NCBI RefSeq assembly: GCF_949628265.1
Contig: NC_088787.1
Coordinates: 36,940,844 to 37,004,843 of the forward strand
DNA from: Cloeon dipterum
Taxonomy: Eukaryota; Arthropoda; Insecta; Ephemeroptera; Baetidae
Direction of reading: 5' to 3'
DNA: 64,000 nt
Below, piece by piece: positions 32,791 through 56,607 of the stretch (position 1 is the first letter of the stretch; each line of letters opens with the position of its first letter). Below the pieces are notes generated by a model, which saw only the letters and a list, made by a program, of their open reading frames with translations, was not told the DNA's origin and ran no database searches. Both the position numbers and the translations under genes were made by a program.

Positions 32791-33520
32791 GCTGTCCCCT
32801 TCATGCGTAACGCCCTCCCCGCTCTGCGTAACGCCCGTCGCGTTATTCATGACGCGTAACGCCTTCCCCGTTATGCGTAACGCCCTACCCATTATTTTGG
32901 ACGCGTGACGCCCTCCCGGTCATGCGTTACGCCCTCTCCGTTATGCGTAACACTCTCCCCGTTTTGCGTAATGGCCTTCTCGATATGCGTAACGCCATCC
33001 CCGTTCTGCGTAACACCCTACCCGTTATTCTTTACGCGTTACGCCTTACCCGTTCATCGTGGCGCGTACCGCCCACACTGTTATGCGTAACGCCCTACCC
33101 ATTATTAGTGACGCGTAACGCCCTCCCCGTTATGCGTAACGCCCTCCCCGTTATGCATCACGCCCTCCCCGTTATGCGTAACACCCTCCCCGTTATGCGT
33201 AACACCCTCCCCGTTATGAGTAACACTCTACCCGTTATTCTTTAAGCGTGACGCCCTCCCTAAGAGGTGTCGCCCTTCCCGTTATGCGTAACGACCTCCC
33301 CGTTATGCGTCACGCCCAACCCATTATTTGTGACGCGTGTTGCTCTCCCCGTTATGCATTACGCCATCCCCGTTATGCGTACCGCCCTCCCTGTTATGCG
33401 TAACACCATATCCGTTATGCGTAACGCCATCCCCGTTCTGCGTTACGCCCTACCCGTTATTTGTGATGCGTGACGCCCTGCCCGTTTTGCGTGACATTCT
33501 CCCCGTTACGCGTAACGGGG
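32790..33520 (+). repeat. Minisatellite with 21-bp and 28-bp units
   Basis: About 30 tandem units of the type ATGCGTAACGCCCTCCCC plus GTT. Most are 21 bp; roughly every fourth to sixth unit is 28 bp because of an added GACGCGT-containing 7 bp. As both sizes are multiples of seven and three, frames stay open (peptide repeat of the form RNTLPVM) but this is not evidence of a gene. Confidence 0.85.
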
Positions 33521-36006: not shown

Positions 36007-37913
36007 CGGTGTTGGATTGGCGTCCGTACATAACGTCAACTGCTATCCTGCAAAGTGAGAAAGCTGGCTGTCTCTTTTTCCAAGCTACTGACAAGATTGA
36101 TGGTGTGAGCATTGAGCATCCATATGGCTCATTGAAAATGTTCACGGTAATATTTTTTAAAGCTTATATTTATTGAAAATATTAATTAATCTCTGTTTAG
36201 AATGAGCTCATGCTGAACAAACTAGTGATTAGTGTGGGTGTCTCCGTGCTGAACGTTATCCAGCGTTAGCCCGACAACGACAACCCAATCATCGTCTTCA
36301 GAGCTCTCTACAACTGCCAAAATGGTATTTTACTTGATTAAAAAATTTACTGATTTTAATCTTGGTCTTTTTCTTTTTAGATATCCCACTGTCCAACAAA
36401 GGAAAGAAAACTGGCTGCCAGAACATCACACACAGCACTTGGAAATCAACCCCTAGTTTTTGATTCAAATGTGCTCTTAACGTTTTAAACTTTCAATTTT
36501 TATTTTCAGCTTATGCCTGCTACTTGTGTTTAATTCACAGTTGCACTTGTCGACCCTGCCAGAACGTCGGTAAACACGAGTCTAGCGAGAAAGCAAATCA
36601 CACCATTTCTCAACACACCCCAAACCAAACCACTCCCTCCCTTTCAGCCGACCCGACAGAGAATCAACCCCCAGAAACCCCACTGAATTTCTTCGAGCAT
36701 ACAGATTGTAAACTTTCCCCTCCCCACACACCCCTAAGAACCTTGGACTACAACCCCTTTAGTCATGTCAACAGCATCTACCATTCCAGCATCAACTCAT
36801 AGCACGACCTCGCACACTGAAGACAACAATGTCAACATTGCTACTGGTAAAATTTGAATGAATTTTTTGTGATTAAATAAAAGTCTGAAAAATAAATTTT
36901 TAAAGGTTTAGGAGTGTTTGCACTGCTCGTGTGTGCCGGCTATGCCTGCATTCTGTGCGCATGCAAACATCTACGCAAAATGCGAGGTGCCAGAGTCCAC
37001 AATGGTGATTGGGACTAACACACAGGACACGAGCAGATACAACTAGCACGTCTACCAGAACCCTTGCCTGCATCTCAACCCCGACCAGAACCGCAACCCC
37101 TGCCAGCGATTGATGAAGAAACAGAGCCGACAGTGGGTGTTGATCCTCCATCTGCCAACACTTGTTCTCCGTACGTGCTAACCTTTGTCGAAGAAGAACA
37201 AGGTAAAAAATTTACAGATCTGAACCTTGGTAAATTAAATGTTTTTTGGTGATGGTTTTTAATGTGAATATTTTTTTGATGACGTTCTTAAATGTGAAAT
37301 TTTTCTAACTTCATTGAAAAGGACTTAAGCAGATACCACAACCCCTGCTGGCAATGCAACCCATCCCAGAACCACCACCCTTTCCAGAACCGCAACCCCT
37401 GTCTGAACAACAACCCACGTCAGAACCGCAACCCCTGTCTGATCAACAACCCATTGCAGAACCACAACCCTTGCCAGAACAACAACCCATTGCAGAACCC
37501 CAACCCTTGCCTGAACCACTACCCCCGCCAGCTGTTGAGAGTGAAGACGAGACAGTGCCAAAAGTGCTAGCTGATCCACCATCAGCTAATATTCACTCTC
37601 CGTACGTCCTTAACTTTGACGTAGAAGGACAAGGTAAAAAAAAGACGAAAAATTTTCAGAGCTGACACTCGGTAACTTTTTTTTGGTTTTTTGGCGACGG
37701 TCTTTAATGTGCATTTTCTTACTTGATTGGCAACTTTTTACTTATCATAACTAGATTAAGTTTTTTGTGGTGGATCACTTTCTCACTGAAATGATTGATT
37801 TGACCACCAATTTTTTTAGATTATTAATGCATAATTCTTAGAGGAAGAACCAAACCCGCCTTTTGTTCCACGACACAGCATGAGACTGAAGGCAAAGAAA
37901 ACTCTTCCAAAAT
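36007..37913 (+). CDS. Single-pass membrane protein with duplicated Pro/Gln-rich tail exons
   Basis: Exon-like segments at 36007-36148, 36201-36320 and 36382-36460 precede a Ser/Thr/Pro-rich, probably glycosylated, region (36510-36847). An exon from 36906 encodes a membrane span (GVFALLVCAGYACILCAC) followed by a basic KHLRKMRG stop-transfer. The cytoplasmic tail has exon 37025-37201 and exon 37329-37632, which are paralogous: both end in DPPSAN, SPYVL and an acidic EQG/GQG before a GTAAAA donor. The second contains a 12-residue repeat EPQPLPEQQPIA. A final exon encodes EEEPNPPFVPRHSMRLKAKK and a stop at 37913. In-frame stops (36269 and the TAA after the membrane exon) suggest damage. I do not recognise the ectodomain; an env-like or host surface protein are both possible. 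Confidence 0.45.
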
Positions 37914-52205: not shown

Positions 52206-53678
52206 ATGGACAACGAAGGAATATCAGCTGATTTTTGGCGGGCTTTCCAGGTTAGCCAGAAACAGCTGTTTGACGAAATGACGTCCCGGATCCTTGCTGC
52301 CTTACCATCCAAGGAGATAATGGGTCAGATCGTGTCTCTCTTGGAGACAACCAGAGACGTACAGGTTCAACAACTTTCGCTTATGGAGGCAATTAACACG
52401 TCGAGGCGTGTTAATAGTCGGGCAAAAAACACGCCTGTTCTCACGTCCACCTTGCCTACGGGCCTCTCTGTTGCGGCAAAAAATACCTGGACTGGAAGGT
52501 GGTCAGCAGAGGACAAAGCTATGCTTCGTGAGTACAAGTCCATAATATCCAGACGTAAATTTCCAGAGTATGAGGGACAAGCAAAATTTGAATATAAACG
52601 TGCTGATATTGCTGATGCCGATGAGATAGTGATTGCTCACTTGGTGGGAGCCAATCTTGACAATGCCCGTGGCGCTGCCGCGTCACTGAAGGATAAATTT
52701 GGACTCTCCAAACCTGACTTCGAACTGAGAATTGGCGACATCCACACTCAATACACTGAAGATGGACGTCAGATCTGGCACCTTGTGAGTAAAAATAGAT
52801 CCGGGGACAAAAAGCATGCAAACCCTGGATGTTTCTTCGCCAATACGGTCTCTGCTCTGGAGAGCTATGCCAGGAGAGTCAAGGAGACAGGAGTTAAGAG
52901 AGTCGCAATGACCCGACTCGGCGCCAGCCTGGATGGCATCAACTGGCGTTTCACCGAATACATTCTCAAAAGCCTTTTTGCAGAGGTGGAGGTTACTTTT
53001 GTTATTTACTCACTGCCTGCTAGAACAGTTTCAGATACCACAAACATTAGCGCAACCGCAGGCTCTTCCCAACGGATGCCAGCAGAGCAAACAAAGGTGG
53101 TTGCGCAGGGCGCGGCTGGGGGTTGTTCTAAGCAACAACTCCCAGGGAAAGTGGTGTCTGGAAATACATTTCCCCCCCAGCCCGCCACCAGCACAGTGGT
53201 AAGACCAAGTAAGCACTATGCAAAGGCTGTGATCTCAAACACCGTTATTGCTCGAGCTCAAAATCAGCCAAGAGATGTTGACTGGAGAGACATACCTGGT
53301 CCCAGCGGAATCAGAAATGTGGAAATGAGACGAAAAGCACACGAACCAAACAGCGTTACTTCAGGCTCTGCCGGTGGGGGTAGCCTGCCCTTGCTGCCCC
53401 CATCCAAAACTCAACGTCTCCCACCCCACCGGCAACCTGCCTTCAGGCAGGTAAGGTCCGCCGAATCAATACGGGATAAGAGCTCACCCTCTCCTGATTC
53501 CGAGCCTGCAGAAAATAACTTATCATTCCAAGCACTGATCAACCAATTAGATGAAATGAGGGAGCAAGTCAGAAAGATGACGCCATTGAAAGAGCAAGCA
53601 GCCTCAGGTTTGGTTCCTCCAACGGTCACTGAAAGGAAAAAAAACGTGACAGCCAGGAAGACCTCATGGAAAACATAA
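52206..53678 (+). CDS. LINE ORF1 protein containing a macro domain
   Basis: 490 intact codons. Residues 1-100 have a possible helical/coiled segment (about 35-65). Residues about 126-272 read as a macro domain: EIVIAHLVGANLDNARGAAA with SLKDKFG (the AHxxSaD...GiA..fK.KFG block), IGDIHTQY, IWHLVSKNRSGDKKHANP, VKRVAMTRLGASLDGINWRF and a closing EVEVTFVIYSL strand. This order matches TARG1/OARD1-type and ALC1-type macro domains, which bind ADP-ribose and can remove it from proteins. K196 and D243 fall at the positions of the catalytic Lys and Asp of TARG1. Residues 275-490 are Pro/Ser/Gln-rich and basic, probably disordered and RNA-binding. I see no CCHC knuckle or RRM. The stop TAA overlaps the ORF2 start (ATGGAAAACATAA). 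A role in countering host ADP-ribosylation or in RNP assembly is inference. Confidence 0.75.
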   Translation: MDNEGISADFWRAFQVSQKQLFDEMTSRILAALPSKEIMGQIVSLLETTRDVQVQQLSLMEAINTSRRVNSRAKNTPVLTSTLPTGLSVAAKNTWTGRWSAEDKAMLREYKSIISRRKFPEYEGQAKFEYKRADIADADEIVIAHLVGANLDNARGAAASLKDKFGLSKPDFELRIGDIHTQYTEDGRQIWHLVSKNRSGDKKHANPGCFFANTVSALESYARRVKETGVKRVAMTRLGASLDGINWRFTEYILKSLFAEVEVTFVIYSLPARTVSDTTNISATAGSSQRMPAEQTKVVAQGAAGGCSKQQLPGKVVSGNTFPPQPATSTVVRPSKHYAKAVISNTVIARAQNQPRDVDWRDIPGPSGIRNVEMRRKAHEPNSVTSGSAGGGSLPLLPPSKTQRLPPHRQPAFRQVRSAESIRDKSSPSPDSEPAENNLSFQALINQLDEMREQVRKMTPLKEQAASGLVPPTVTERKKNVTARKTSWKT

Positions 53679-56607
53679 AGAAGAGTGGTTGTGACCAGCA
53701 GACTGAGCAGCAAAAGTTTTTTCATTCTAAATATTTTGGTGTTTTAACATTGAACTGTCAAGGTTTAGCCTCTACTAATAATCTTCAACTTCTTAAGGAT
53801 CATGTTCGAGAACTAAACAGTGAAAAAACTCCCAAAGTACTCATACAAACAGAAACCTGGCTCTCAAAAGGAGAAGTTAACAAACTCTGTATTTTAAACT
53901 TTAGAACTCTGTCAGCTTATGGACGTGAGAATATGCAGCGTGGAGGAGTCGCAATTTTGGCACAACAAAATATTGAACATGAGGCTTTAGATGTTGTTTC
54001 CTTTGAAGGGCGGTTGGAGCTGGCTGCTGCCAAATTGAAGTATGGAGAGAAGAAGTTGCTGATTGTTGGCCTATACAGACCATCCAACCCACTAAACAAT
54101 GCTAATTTTGATTTTTTCTTTGAAAAACTTTTTGAGTCCCTGTCAACTCTGGGCAAACTCATGAAACGTCGAAAAATGCAGTATATGTTAGTAGCAGGTG
54201 ACTTCAACATAAACGTATTGGTGAATAGCTCGACAACAAGGCGGCTGCTCAACCTCATGCAGCAATTCGACCTAAAACTACTCAACGATGGTATGGTCAC
54301 TCGCTTTAATCAAAACGGAGGTACAGGCATTGACTTTTTGTTTGGTGGTCCCACTCACACTGAATATTTTTGCCACACCATGTCTAACATATTGTCTGAT
54401 CATGAGTCAGTATTTTGCAATTTCAACATCTCGGAGATCCTGGCCGAAGACGTAATTAAAATGGAAAGAAGCTTTGCGGATTCCAGAATGCTGCAGTTTG
54501 AAGACTACCTTTCGCTCCAAGATTGGAACTTTTCACTTGCTCCTAATAATGTAAACATCCTTTATGAGATGTTTATAAAAATATTTAAAATAGGCTTTGA
54601 TGTTTGTTTTCCCTACTCTAAAAAGATTTACAGGGCAAACCAGAGGGGAAAAATAAAACTGTCAGATAAAGTAAAGAATCAGCGAGCGGAACTACGAGAT
54701 CAGCGCTACCTAATTAAGACTGTGCAAGATCCTATCACCAAACAAAGCATGAAGGGAGAGCTGAAAAAGATGAAGTACAACTACCTGAAGGTGCTGCATG
54801 AAGAGATCCGAACGTCCAACAGCAGGTTCATAAATAACGCAACAAATCGTTCAAAAGCTGCGTGGCAGATAGTTAATGATATGCTAGGGAATTTCAGATC
54901 TGATAGCACCATAAAAAAGTTGAAATGTGGTGATGGGACTGAGACTGATAGTTTTAAAATCGCAAACACCCTGAATAAAAAATTCATTGTGCCACCTGGA
55001 GATGCCGGAGATTTTTCGACGTCACTCCTATCACCCGCAGTTGCCAGAGGCTTCTTTTTGTCACCCGTTGTCGAGCAGGAGGTGCTGCTTTGGTTACGCA
55101 GACTCCCAAACAAGCGTTCCAGAGGCACCGACGAAATTCCAATTTTCCTCATTAAAAGAGTCGCAAATCTAATTGCTGCACCTCTTACTTATATTATAAA
55201 CAGGTCATTCGAGCAAGGCGTCTACCCAGACCTAATGAAGAGAGCAATCGTCGTCCCCATCTATAAAAAAGGTGATAAGCTGGATGCCGCCAACTACAGA
55301 CCAATCTCTAACCTGCCCTCTTTCTCGAAAGTTTTTGAACAGTGCTTTTTATTCCGCTTATATGAACACTTTCTCGCAAATAATTTGTTGCCGCTAACCC
55401 AGCATGGTTTTTTAAAAGGGCGGTCTACTCAAACGGCTTTTACGAATTCATCATGGAACTGACGCAGAGTCTGGAGCAGAAGAAGAAGACGATTGGAATC
55501 TTCTTTGACTTTTCTAATGCATTTGGAACTATCTGTCCCTCTATTTTATTAAGGAAGCTTGAGCTACACGGAGTACGAGGTGAGCCGTTGAATTGGATCA
55601 AATCAGCTTTAGAAGAGCGTCAGCAATGTGTAAAAATAACTGCAAAAGAAGGTAAAGTCCACCGAGAGATATATTCAAACTTCCTTAGTTACGAGAGAGG
55701 AACGCCACAAGGAGGAATTATGTCGCCCTTCCTCTTTGATGTTGCAATTTATGATCTAGCCCTGAAAGTGTGCGGCCACAAGCTAATTAATTATGCTGAT
55801 GATGCAACTGCAATTGTTACGGCGAAGAAATACGATGACGTTGAAGCAGAATCCAGCCTGGTTGCAGCACGGATGGGATTGTACTGCGTAGAAAATCATT
55901 TGCAGGCAAACGCAACAAAATCAGCGCTTCTAGTGTTTAGAAACCCACATGCCCAAAGATCCCCATATGAGTTTCATGTCGCCATGTCTGATGCAAATAT
56001 TCCCAACGTTTCAGACACCAAACTTCTTGGTTTGAGATTTACAGATAATATGTCGTGGAGCAAACAAAGCAGCCACGTAGTCGACAAATTACACTCAGCA
56101 GTCTTTATGGTCACCACCCTTAGGAAGAGTGTTGATTTCCAGCAGATCTTAAATGTGTATTATGCCTATGCCTATTCACAGATCCAATATGAAATAATTT
56201 TCTGGGGAACTTAGGCGATAGACGAGGTTTTTGTCGCACAAAAAATGCTGATGAGAGCCATGGCCGGAGTCCAATATAAGAGATCAAACATACCACTTCA
56301 GTCTGCCCGCCCATATTTTGCTAAGTTTGAAATTTTGCCAATTTACTCCGTTTATTTGTTAGAAAGCTGTAAATTTGTCAGGAAACACCCGCAGTACTTC
56401 CAGGAAATTGTTGAGGATCACAACCCAACCGCAGCAATTTATAAATTCAACCCAAAAAAATGTATGACAAAACTATACAATTCTCTTCCAGATGCTGTGA
56501 AAGGAGAATTGCAGTTCAAAAAGTATGAGAAAGCTTTAAAAAAATTCATCAATTCTAACAAATTCTATAATGAGCAGGAGTTCCTATCTTTCAGACCGAC
56601 ATTGTAG
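53666..56607 (+). pseudogene. LINE ORF2: AP endonuclease and reverse transcriptase, frameshifted
   Basis: Endonuclease motifs are in order: GVLTLNCQGL, IQTETWLS, RGGVAIL, VGLYRP, VAGDFNINV and SDHESV. RT follows: RGTDEIPIFLIKRVANL, VPIYKKGDKLDAANYRPIS, QHGFLKGRSTQTA, IFFDFSNAFG, RGTPQGGIMSPFLF, NYADDATAI. A one-base loss near 55440 shifts the frame between finger and palm, and a TAG at 56212-56214 (after FWGT) precedes the last 130 codons (FVAQKMLMRAMAGVQ to the end). All catalytic residues are otherwise present, so the copy is young. No RNase H or zinc knuckle is seen. Confidence 0.85.

Follow-up and report, generated by a model that had tools for sequence, protein, structure and literature searches.

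A LINE with a macro-domain ORF1 in the Cloeon dipterum genome

The window analysed here is a stretch of 64,000 nucleotides from the mayfly Cloeon dipterum (NC_088787.1, positions 36,940,844 to 37,004,843 of the forward strand), and it contains a long interspersed nuclear element (LINE). Comparison of this element with its relatives showed that, in diverse endonuclease-bearing mayfly LINEs, the conserved core of the first open reading frame (ORF1) is a macro domain related to TARG1 that can be exchanged among ORF2 lineages. Both ORFs of the window copy lie on the forward strand. ORF1 (52206..53678) is intact from ATG to stop and encodes 490 residues with a pI of 9.9, exactly as a sequence-only reading of the window had described it. 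An N-terminal part lacking any family match (residues 1-123; 52206..52574) is followed by the TARG1-related domain (residues 124-272; 52575..53021), which is identified by sequence, profile and predicted fold, and by a basic C-terminal tail (53022..53675; pI 10.6). The ATG of ORF2 at 53666 overlaps the end of ORF1 by 13 nt. ORF scanning and Pfam resolved ORF2 into an endonuclease with the start of the reverse transcriptase (RT) (53666..55462; PF14529, E 1.1e-7; PF03372, E 1.6e-5), an RT piece in a different frame (55453..56214; PF00078, E 2.9e-15) and a C-terminal piece found by ORF scan (56245..56607). Three open pieces imply two breaks, one near 55455 and one between 56214 and 56245, in agreement with the two lesions first counted. 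The element is an apurinic/apyrimidinic endonuclease (APE)-type LINE whose ORF1 is intact and whose ORF2 is broken twice. The same endonuclease was found in relatives L022 and L061, and the RTs of the two relatives tested matched LINE-1 and R2 RT chains of the PDB. Here L-numbers denote genome loci (L001 is the window copy), P-numbers database proteins, C1-C5 chromosomes and C6-C8 small contigs.

The sequence-only reading had placed a macro domain of TARG1/ALC1 type at about residues 126-272. Against all PDB sequences, residues 124-270 of ORF1 retrieved six matches, of which the first five are human TARG1 (C6orf130; E 2.5e-7 to 4.8e-7), and TARG1 was the top sequence match for every ORF1 tested. 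A profile of the window ORF1 and eight relatives, drawn only from groups A, B and C (defined below), matched TARG1 with E 5.8e-24; a profile of eight ORF1s including group D did so with E 4.7e-32, and the ORF1 of L028 with E 2.3e-23. Identity between the window domain and TARG1 was 22-23%. The predicted structure of the window domain has the macro fold, with low confidence at the catalytic loop. PDB match, profiles and predicted fold thus agree on a macro domain, and the TARG1 half of the original label is correct, comparison with other classes such as ALC1 and MacroD extending to what the PDB searches listed. Taken together, the sequence comparisons exclude a chance resemblance to TARG1.

Two checks had been proposed for the domain, and they diverged. 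Structure prediction supported it, as described above. A search with the Pfam Macro model (PF01661) gave no match to the window ORF1 even at E 10, and would have missed the domain; it also missed L028, and up to E 1 it matched two of eight family members. The PF01661 model is too narrow for the TARG1-related branch, and because the TARG1 homology of the window ORF1 is clear we do not read the Pfam negative as a refutation.

TARG1 itself (also OARD1; terminal ADP-ribose glycohydrolase) shares the fold and a Lys/Asp pair with the ORF1 domain and differs in that the latter sits in a 490-residue transposon protein and, in groups A-C, lacks the published TARG1 signature. The macrodomain of DarG, from the DarT/DarG pair, is a bacterial antitoxin with no LINE context and a weaker match (5m3i, E 7.8e-5). 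Macro domains of positive-strand RNA viruses differ in being viral and in sequence match (E 9.3e-4, against 5.8e-24 for TARG1).

The domain is shared by many linked elements

In the C. dipterum genome (190 Mb, 10 contigs) the window ORF1 gave 43 matches, and further ones came from other queries; merged by hand, the matches made 67 macro loci. At 35 of these an endonuclease or ORF2 match followed on the same strand within 3.2 kb. The proposed search for further copies with ORF1-ORF2 linkage therefore succeeded, as divergent families of the same genome carry the domain, and the 35 linked loci rule out a domain confined to the window copy. Among the remaining 32 loci are genes outside LINEs, fragments and no fewer than five near-copies of linked elements. 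Both ORFs are open in elements including L002, L020, L022 and L030. L022 (C4) and L023 (C5) differ at 4 of 4399 positions (99.9% identity) and have distinct flanks; since they are near-identical on different chromosomes, ORF1 and ORF2 would have moved as a unit. L023 shows a duplication of 11 identical nt, or 14 nt with one mismatch, around its 3′ end (TTCATTCA). No convincing target-site duplication was found for L022.

For five elements (L051-L055) whose ORF2 is related to that of L002 and which had given no initial macro match, we examined the sequence upstream. L053 carries a broken macro domain (hidden Markov model E 1.3e-35) and L054 an ORF1 tail only in the examined stretch; for L052 and L055 no recognisable ORF1 was found in the stretch examined upstream of ORF2. 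L051 (534-2180 of C2:37243000-37245300) has an open ORF1 of 549 residues in which no macro match was detected at full sensitivity, so the domain can be lost. The N-terminal stretch of this ORF1 resembles P0006 by eye, its tail has four repeats, and its ORF2 has a second copy at C1:390824.

The genome also contains TARG1-like genes, some of them clustered, with no LINE ORF2 in the stretches examined (L035, L057, L056, L058 and L032, and at C5:23157486-23987027 and C3:35106528-36021713). They may stem from an expansion of the host's own TARG1 genes or be ORF1 domains that the host has domesticated.

ORF1 has passed from one ORF2 lineage to another

The domains fall into group A (the window copy and L002-L004), group B (L007-L021), group C (L022, L024 and L059-L062) and group D (L025-L030, L034 and L053, together with database proteins). 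The endonucleases split into lineage X (12 rows) and lineage Y (7 rows) along a branch supported at 100/100; identity averages 35% among X rows, 41% among Y rows and 19% (range 14-26%) across the two. The two trees conflict. L001 and L002 are 71% identical in the domain and 25% in the endonuclease. In the endonuclease tree L001 groups with L011 and L020 (95/96) and L002 with L004, L026 and L034 (98/95), against a domain tree in which L001, L002 and L004 stand together (100/99). Group D is likewise a single clade of the domain tree (99/99), yet it occurs on both X (L026, L034) and Y (L028, L030). We conclude from this conflict that ORF1 was exchanged between ORF2 lineages. Reticulate evolution has been reported for other ORF1 types (PMC4120745). 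The combination seen in L001 recurs in L006, whose tail is 80% identical and whose endonuclease stretch, judged by eye, almost equals the one in L001. An assembly accident can therefore be dismissed for the window copy. The long branches and weak deep split (74/64) of the macro-domain tree make it too weak to count captures. A chimera was also seen within the family: L012 and L019 have nearly identical tails (dS 0.085) and N-terminal and macro parts that are far apart.

The catalytic pair is conserved

K196 (codon 52791..52793) and D243 (codon 52932..52934) had been proposed to occupy the places of the TARG1 catalytic pair, and alignment confirmed this. K196 aligns with the lysine of LITK in 4j5q, which corresponds to K84 if an offset of +6 is assumed for index 78 of that chain, and D243 with the aspartate of GLDRLQW, corresponding to D125. 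In TARG1, K84 is the nucleophile and D125 serves hydrolysis of the lysyl-ADP-ribose intermediate (PMC6397177). We aligned 52 sequences; the 30 LINE rows omit L005 (a copy of L003), L006 (tail only), the near-copies L009, L010, L014 and L023, and 10 of 13 matches without a locus (L036 and L037 among them), L060-L062 of those 13 being included. The lysine is present in 30/30 LINE rows, in every database protein but one (16/17; P0007 is gapped there) and in all five non-LINE genes. The aspartate is present in 28/30 LINE rows (glutamate in L021 and L059), 17/17 database proteins and 5/5 non-LINE genes. Across 27 representatives the lysine column is one of five that are invariant among the 20 highest-scoring of 156 columns, and the histidine of the AHCV loop is kept in 24, with glutamine in three.

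The signature published for TARG1, TKx(30,35)Px[IL]GxGxD (PMC6397177), is found in six of the 30 LINE rows, all six among the eight of group D, in 16/17 database proteins and in one of the five non-LINE genes; no row of groups A-C has it. The nucleophilic lysine is thus retained while the phosphate loop drifts. Since the window copy lacks the signature, we call its domain TARG1-related and do not make it a member of TARG1.

These columns bear on whether the fold has kept an ADP-ribose function at all. It could instead have become a scaffold for RNA binding or assembly, taking the place of the RRM or coiled coil that other ORF1 proteins use. The window ORF1 has no Pfam match to RRM, CCHC, the L1-like transposase_22, PHD or esterase families, nor do eight family members and 8 of the 17 database proteins, which would suit such a replacement, as would a viral macro domain solved with RNA in the PDB (3gpq). 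A scaffold would hardly account for conserved columns that include the catalytic K, the D/E and the AHCV-loop histidine, and the basic tail is the likelier RNA binder. We regard this explanation as improbable.

Selection acts on the macro domain

The proposed comparison of nonsynonymous and synonymous rates (dN/dS) among copies was made on 19 pairs by the Nei-Gojobori method; the domain was saturated in eight, dS was below 0.1 in five, and six were usable. In these six, with dS above 1 in three of them, dN/dS of the domain was 0.12, 0.14, 0.09, 0.08, 0.17 and 0.17, and that of the tail, in the same order, 0.60, 0.68, 0.56, 0.40, 0.69 and 0.54; the tail is not a neutral yardstick, its dS being below that of the domain in several pairs. 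The pair L001/L002 was synonymously saturated, with a dN of 0.18 for the domain and 0.44 for the tail, as was the domain of L001/L004. These ratios show the macro domain as the best-conserved part of ORF1, under purifying selection. A contrary value came from the close pair L007/L012, with a domain dN/dS of 0.51 (five synonymous and nine other changes). Selection until recently, which had been proposed for the window copy from its intact ORF1, has its firmer support at the level of the group; the window copy itself gives less, its pairs with L002 and L004 being saturated.

The same data speak to a further explanation, that these elements picked up a TARG1-like exon of the host by chance and carry it along as a passenger. 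TARG1-like genes without an adjoining LINE ORF2 in sight (L035/L057, L056/L058, L032) offer a source for such a capture, and the tree places L035/L057 beside group D, though only weakly (81/32). A passenger would not be expected to persist across synonymously saturated families, with dN/dS well under 1 in usable pairs, or to be present on two separate ORF2 lineages. We consider it most improbable.

Relatives and known ORF1 types

A protein search led by group D recovered 17 proteins: four from C. dipterum, one from Neocloeon triangulifer (P0005, 620 residues) and 12 from JGI metagenomes. Ten of the 12 metagenome proteins measure 471-544 residues, which is ORF1 length, and we infer that relatives beyond Cloeon are linked to LINEs as well. 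Searches with the window ORF1 alone or with groups A-C gave no protein at E 0.001 among about 7,990 candidates scored, and no related locus was found in the viral contigs searched.

Macro LINEs share with ORF1 types I-V of the Jockey superfamily (Khazina and Weichenrieder; Metcalfe and Casane 2014, PMC4120745) an ORF1 that precedes an endonuclease-RT ORF2, as well as modular ORF1s with reticulate evolution. The ORF1 domains described there are RRM, CCHC, the L1-like coiled coil/RRM/C-terminal domain arrangement, PHD and esterase. The main text of that paper never uses the word "macro", and in its scheme a macro ORF1 would be type V, unclassified. In our literature searches, which covered titles and abstract openings with subscription papers and repeat libraries outside their reach, a macro domain in a LINE ORF1 was undescribed among the matches listed. 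The term "macro domain" is absent from the C. dipterum genome paper (PMC7250882), and passages of papers on L1-insertion genes (PMC5434184), bacterial conflict genes (PMC8195603) and macroH2A (PMC9145170), in which both kinds of term occur, proved unrelated. The novelty claimed for the domain thus stands as far as these searches reach. Records with names such as "Macro domain-containing protein" indicate that the domain itself has already been annotated automatically.

ORF1 tails contain hairpins followed by splice-donor-like motifs

The tail of the window ORF1 contains two RNA hairpin units on the forward strand, each ending in GGTAAG, a form of the GGTRAG motif that resembles a 5′ splice donor. 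The first (53097..53203; GGTAAG at 53198-53203) is weak alone (fold z -1.8); the second (53369..53455; main stem 53369-53434, GGTAAG at 53450-53455) has a fold z of -3.2. We counted GGTRAG in 17 elements, which are related so that the counts are not independent: 24 occurrences lie on the sense strand of 11.3 kb of ORF1 tails versus two antisense, with four in the 14.3 kb of remaining ORF1 sequence and three in the 34.8 kb after ORF1. Twelve tails of groups A, B and D carry one to three each, five of group C none, and L051 four. On average, the 100 nt preceding the 24 sites fold with -44.8 kcal/mol, compared with -26.5 kcal/mol (sd 8.7) for random positions in 15 tails, of which three belong to group C. 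Fold z-scores of seven hairpin units ranged from -0.7 to -5.7, and not every unit is convincing by itself. Alignments of five and of four sequences showed changes on both sides of 3/27 and 2/27 pairs, respectively, one of these pairs having four pair types among five sequences. Hairpin and GGTRAG occur together in the window copy, L002, L004, L011, L012, L017, L019, L020, L026, L028, L030, L034, L051 and L054. By eye, the NCBI model P0004 exits the ORF at one such GGTGAG, and P0002 does so in the following unit at a variant, GGTGAT, suggesting that the models treat these sites as splice donors. On the hairpin units, no Rfam match attained a gathering score.

A candidate ADP-ribose eraser at the target nick

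LINEs nick their target and prime reverse transcription there, and TARG1 acts on Asp/Glu and on DNA. On balance, we think it probable that the macro domain of the ORF1 protein (ORF1p) is an ADP-ribose eraser within the ribonucleoprotein (RNP), acting on marks that host poly(ADP-ribose) polymerases (PARPs) leave at the target nick. The basic tail would bind element RNA, and ORF1p would thereby bring the eraser into the RNP and to the nick. As the element nicks its target, host PARPs would add ADP-ribose, on which the domain could act in the RNP, most likely by hydrolysing it from ORF1p or ORF2p, chromatin or nicked DNA ends. Target-primed reverse transcription would then be neither blocked nor flagged. 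In groups A (including the window copy) and B, where the phosphate loop is changed, the pocket may mainly bind. Published work gives this proposal a setting. In human LINE-1 retrotransposition, PARP1 and PARP2 assemble at the break and their loss lowers retrotransposition (reviewed in PMC8535693). TARG1 removes the ADP-ribose that PARP1 attaches to DNA at telomeric single strands (PMC11102865). Eight mobile elements were significantly misregulated in Drosophila lacking PARP-1; five of them rose and three, including the LINE ivk, fell (PMC7712786).

The main rival to an eraser, more so for groups A and B, is a reader, in which the domain would bind ADP-ribose or poly-ADP-ribose without hydrolysing it and tether the RNP to PARylated nicks or chromatin. 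Two observations weigh towards binding: the loop changes of groups A and B, which in the window copy (SK and TRLGASLD) replace T by S before K, P by T and GxG by GxS; and the low model confidence at the catalytic loop. At the LINE-1 integration site, moreover, activated PARP2 brings in RPA and helps insertion (reviewed in PMC8535693). A pure reader has no need of the nucleophilic lysine, however, and this residue is kept in 30/30 LINE rows; the complete TARG1 signature in 6/8 group D rows also argues against it. We therefore judge a reader unlikely, though the strongest of the alternatives.

A broader reading, which we advance tentatively and hold a little short of probable, is that these elements form a class of LINEs, with at least two ORF2 lineages and probably several animal hosts, whose ORF1p has a TARG1-type ADP-ribosylhydrolase as its core. 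They would then encode an eraser of ADP-ribosylation, the first known from a transposon, that evades or exploits host PARPs at the nicked target or in the RNP. In many tails the RNA hairpins with their splice-donor-like motifs would add a second layer of control.

ORF1 is the less understood half of LINEs, and PARPs are already known at LINE-1 insertion sites. With an ADP-ribose enzyme fold as the conserved core of a LINE protein, the connection of ADP-ribosylation with retrotransposition can be tested directly, and evolution provides the variants for it in the full TARG1 signature of most of group D, the changed loops of groups A-C and the domain loss in L051. Macro LINEs extend the parallel between transposons and macro-domain RNA viruses, and their ORF1 suggests that these elements deal directly with host ADP-ribose signalling and the DNA-repair system.

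Genomic position and other features

On C1-C5, in a hand-made list, 23/24 X-type macro loci lie no more than 1.7 Mb from a chromosome end versus 3/14 Y-type loci, the copies being related and clustered and two X and several Y loci having been assigned through similarity to a linked copy. These end zones make up 9% of C1-C5; loci on C6-C8 are uncounted, and three LINE loci were assigned to neither type. X-type loci crowd near one chromosome end, at 36.2-37.2 Mb on C2, 0.4-1.6 Mb on C5 and 0.8-0.9 Mb on C1. The C2 and C5 ends nearest these clusters contain, in the 3 kb examined of each, AT-rich repeats of about 50 bp. No TTAGG array that would favour a telomeric element was found in the 3 kb at each of these two ends, where pericentromeric and subtelomeric positions are indistinguishable.

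The host genome gave 24 matches to the PARP catalytic domain model PF00644 (best E 5e-72). Five PARP-domain matches lie within 20 kb at C3:7544902-7563320, and the repertoire of ADP-ribosyltransferases in this mayfly may be an expanded one.

Elsewhere in the window, a GC-rich tandem array at 32805-33507 has a period of 21 (GCGTAACGCCCTCCCCGTTAT) and about 28 copies, and a second tandem array at 37356-37524 has a period of 36/18, with 4.7 copies of the 36-nt unit.
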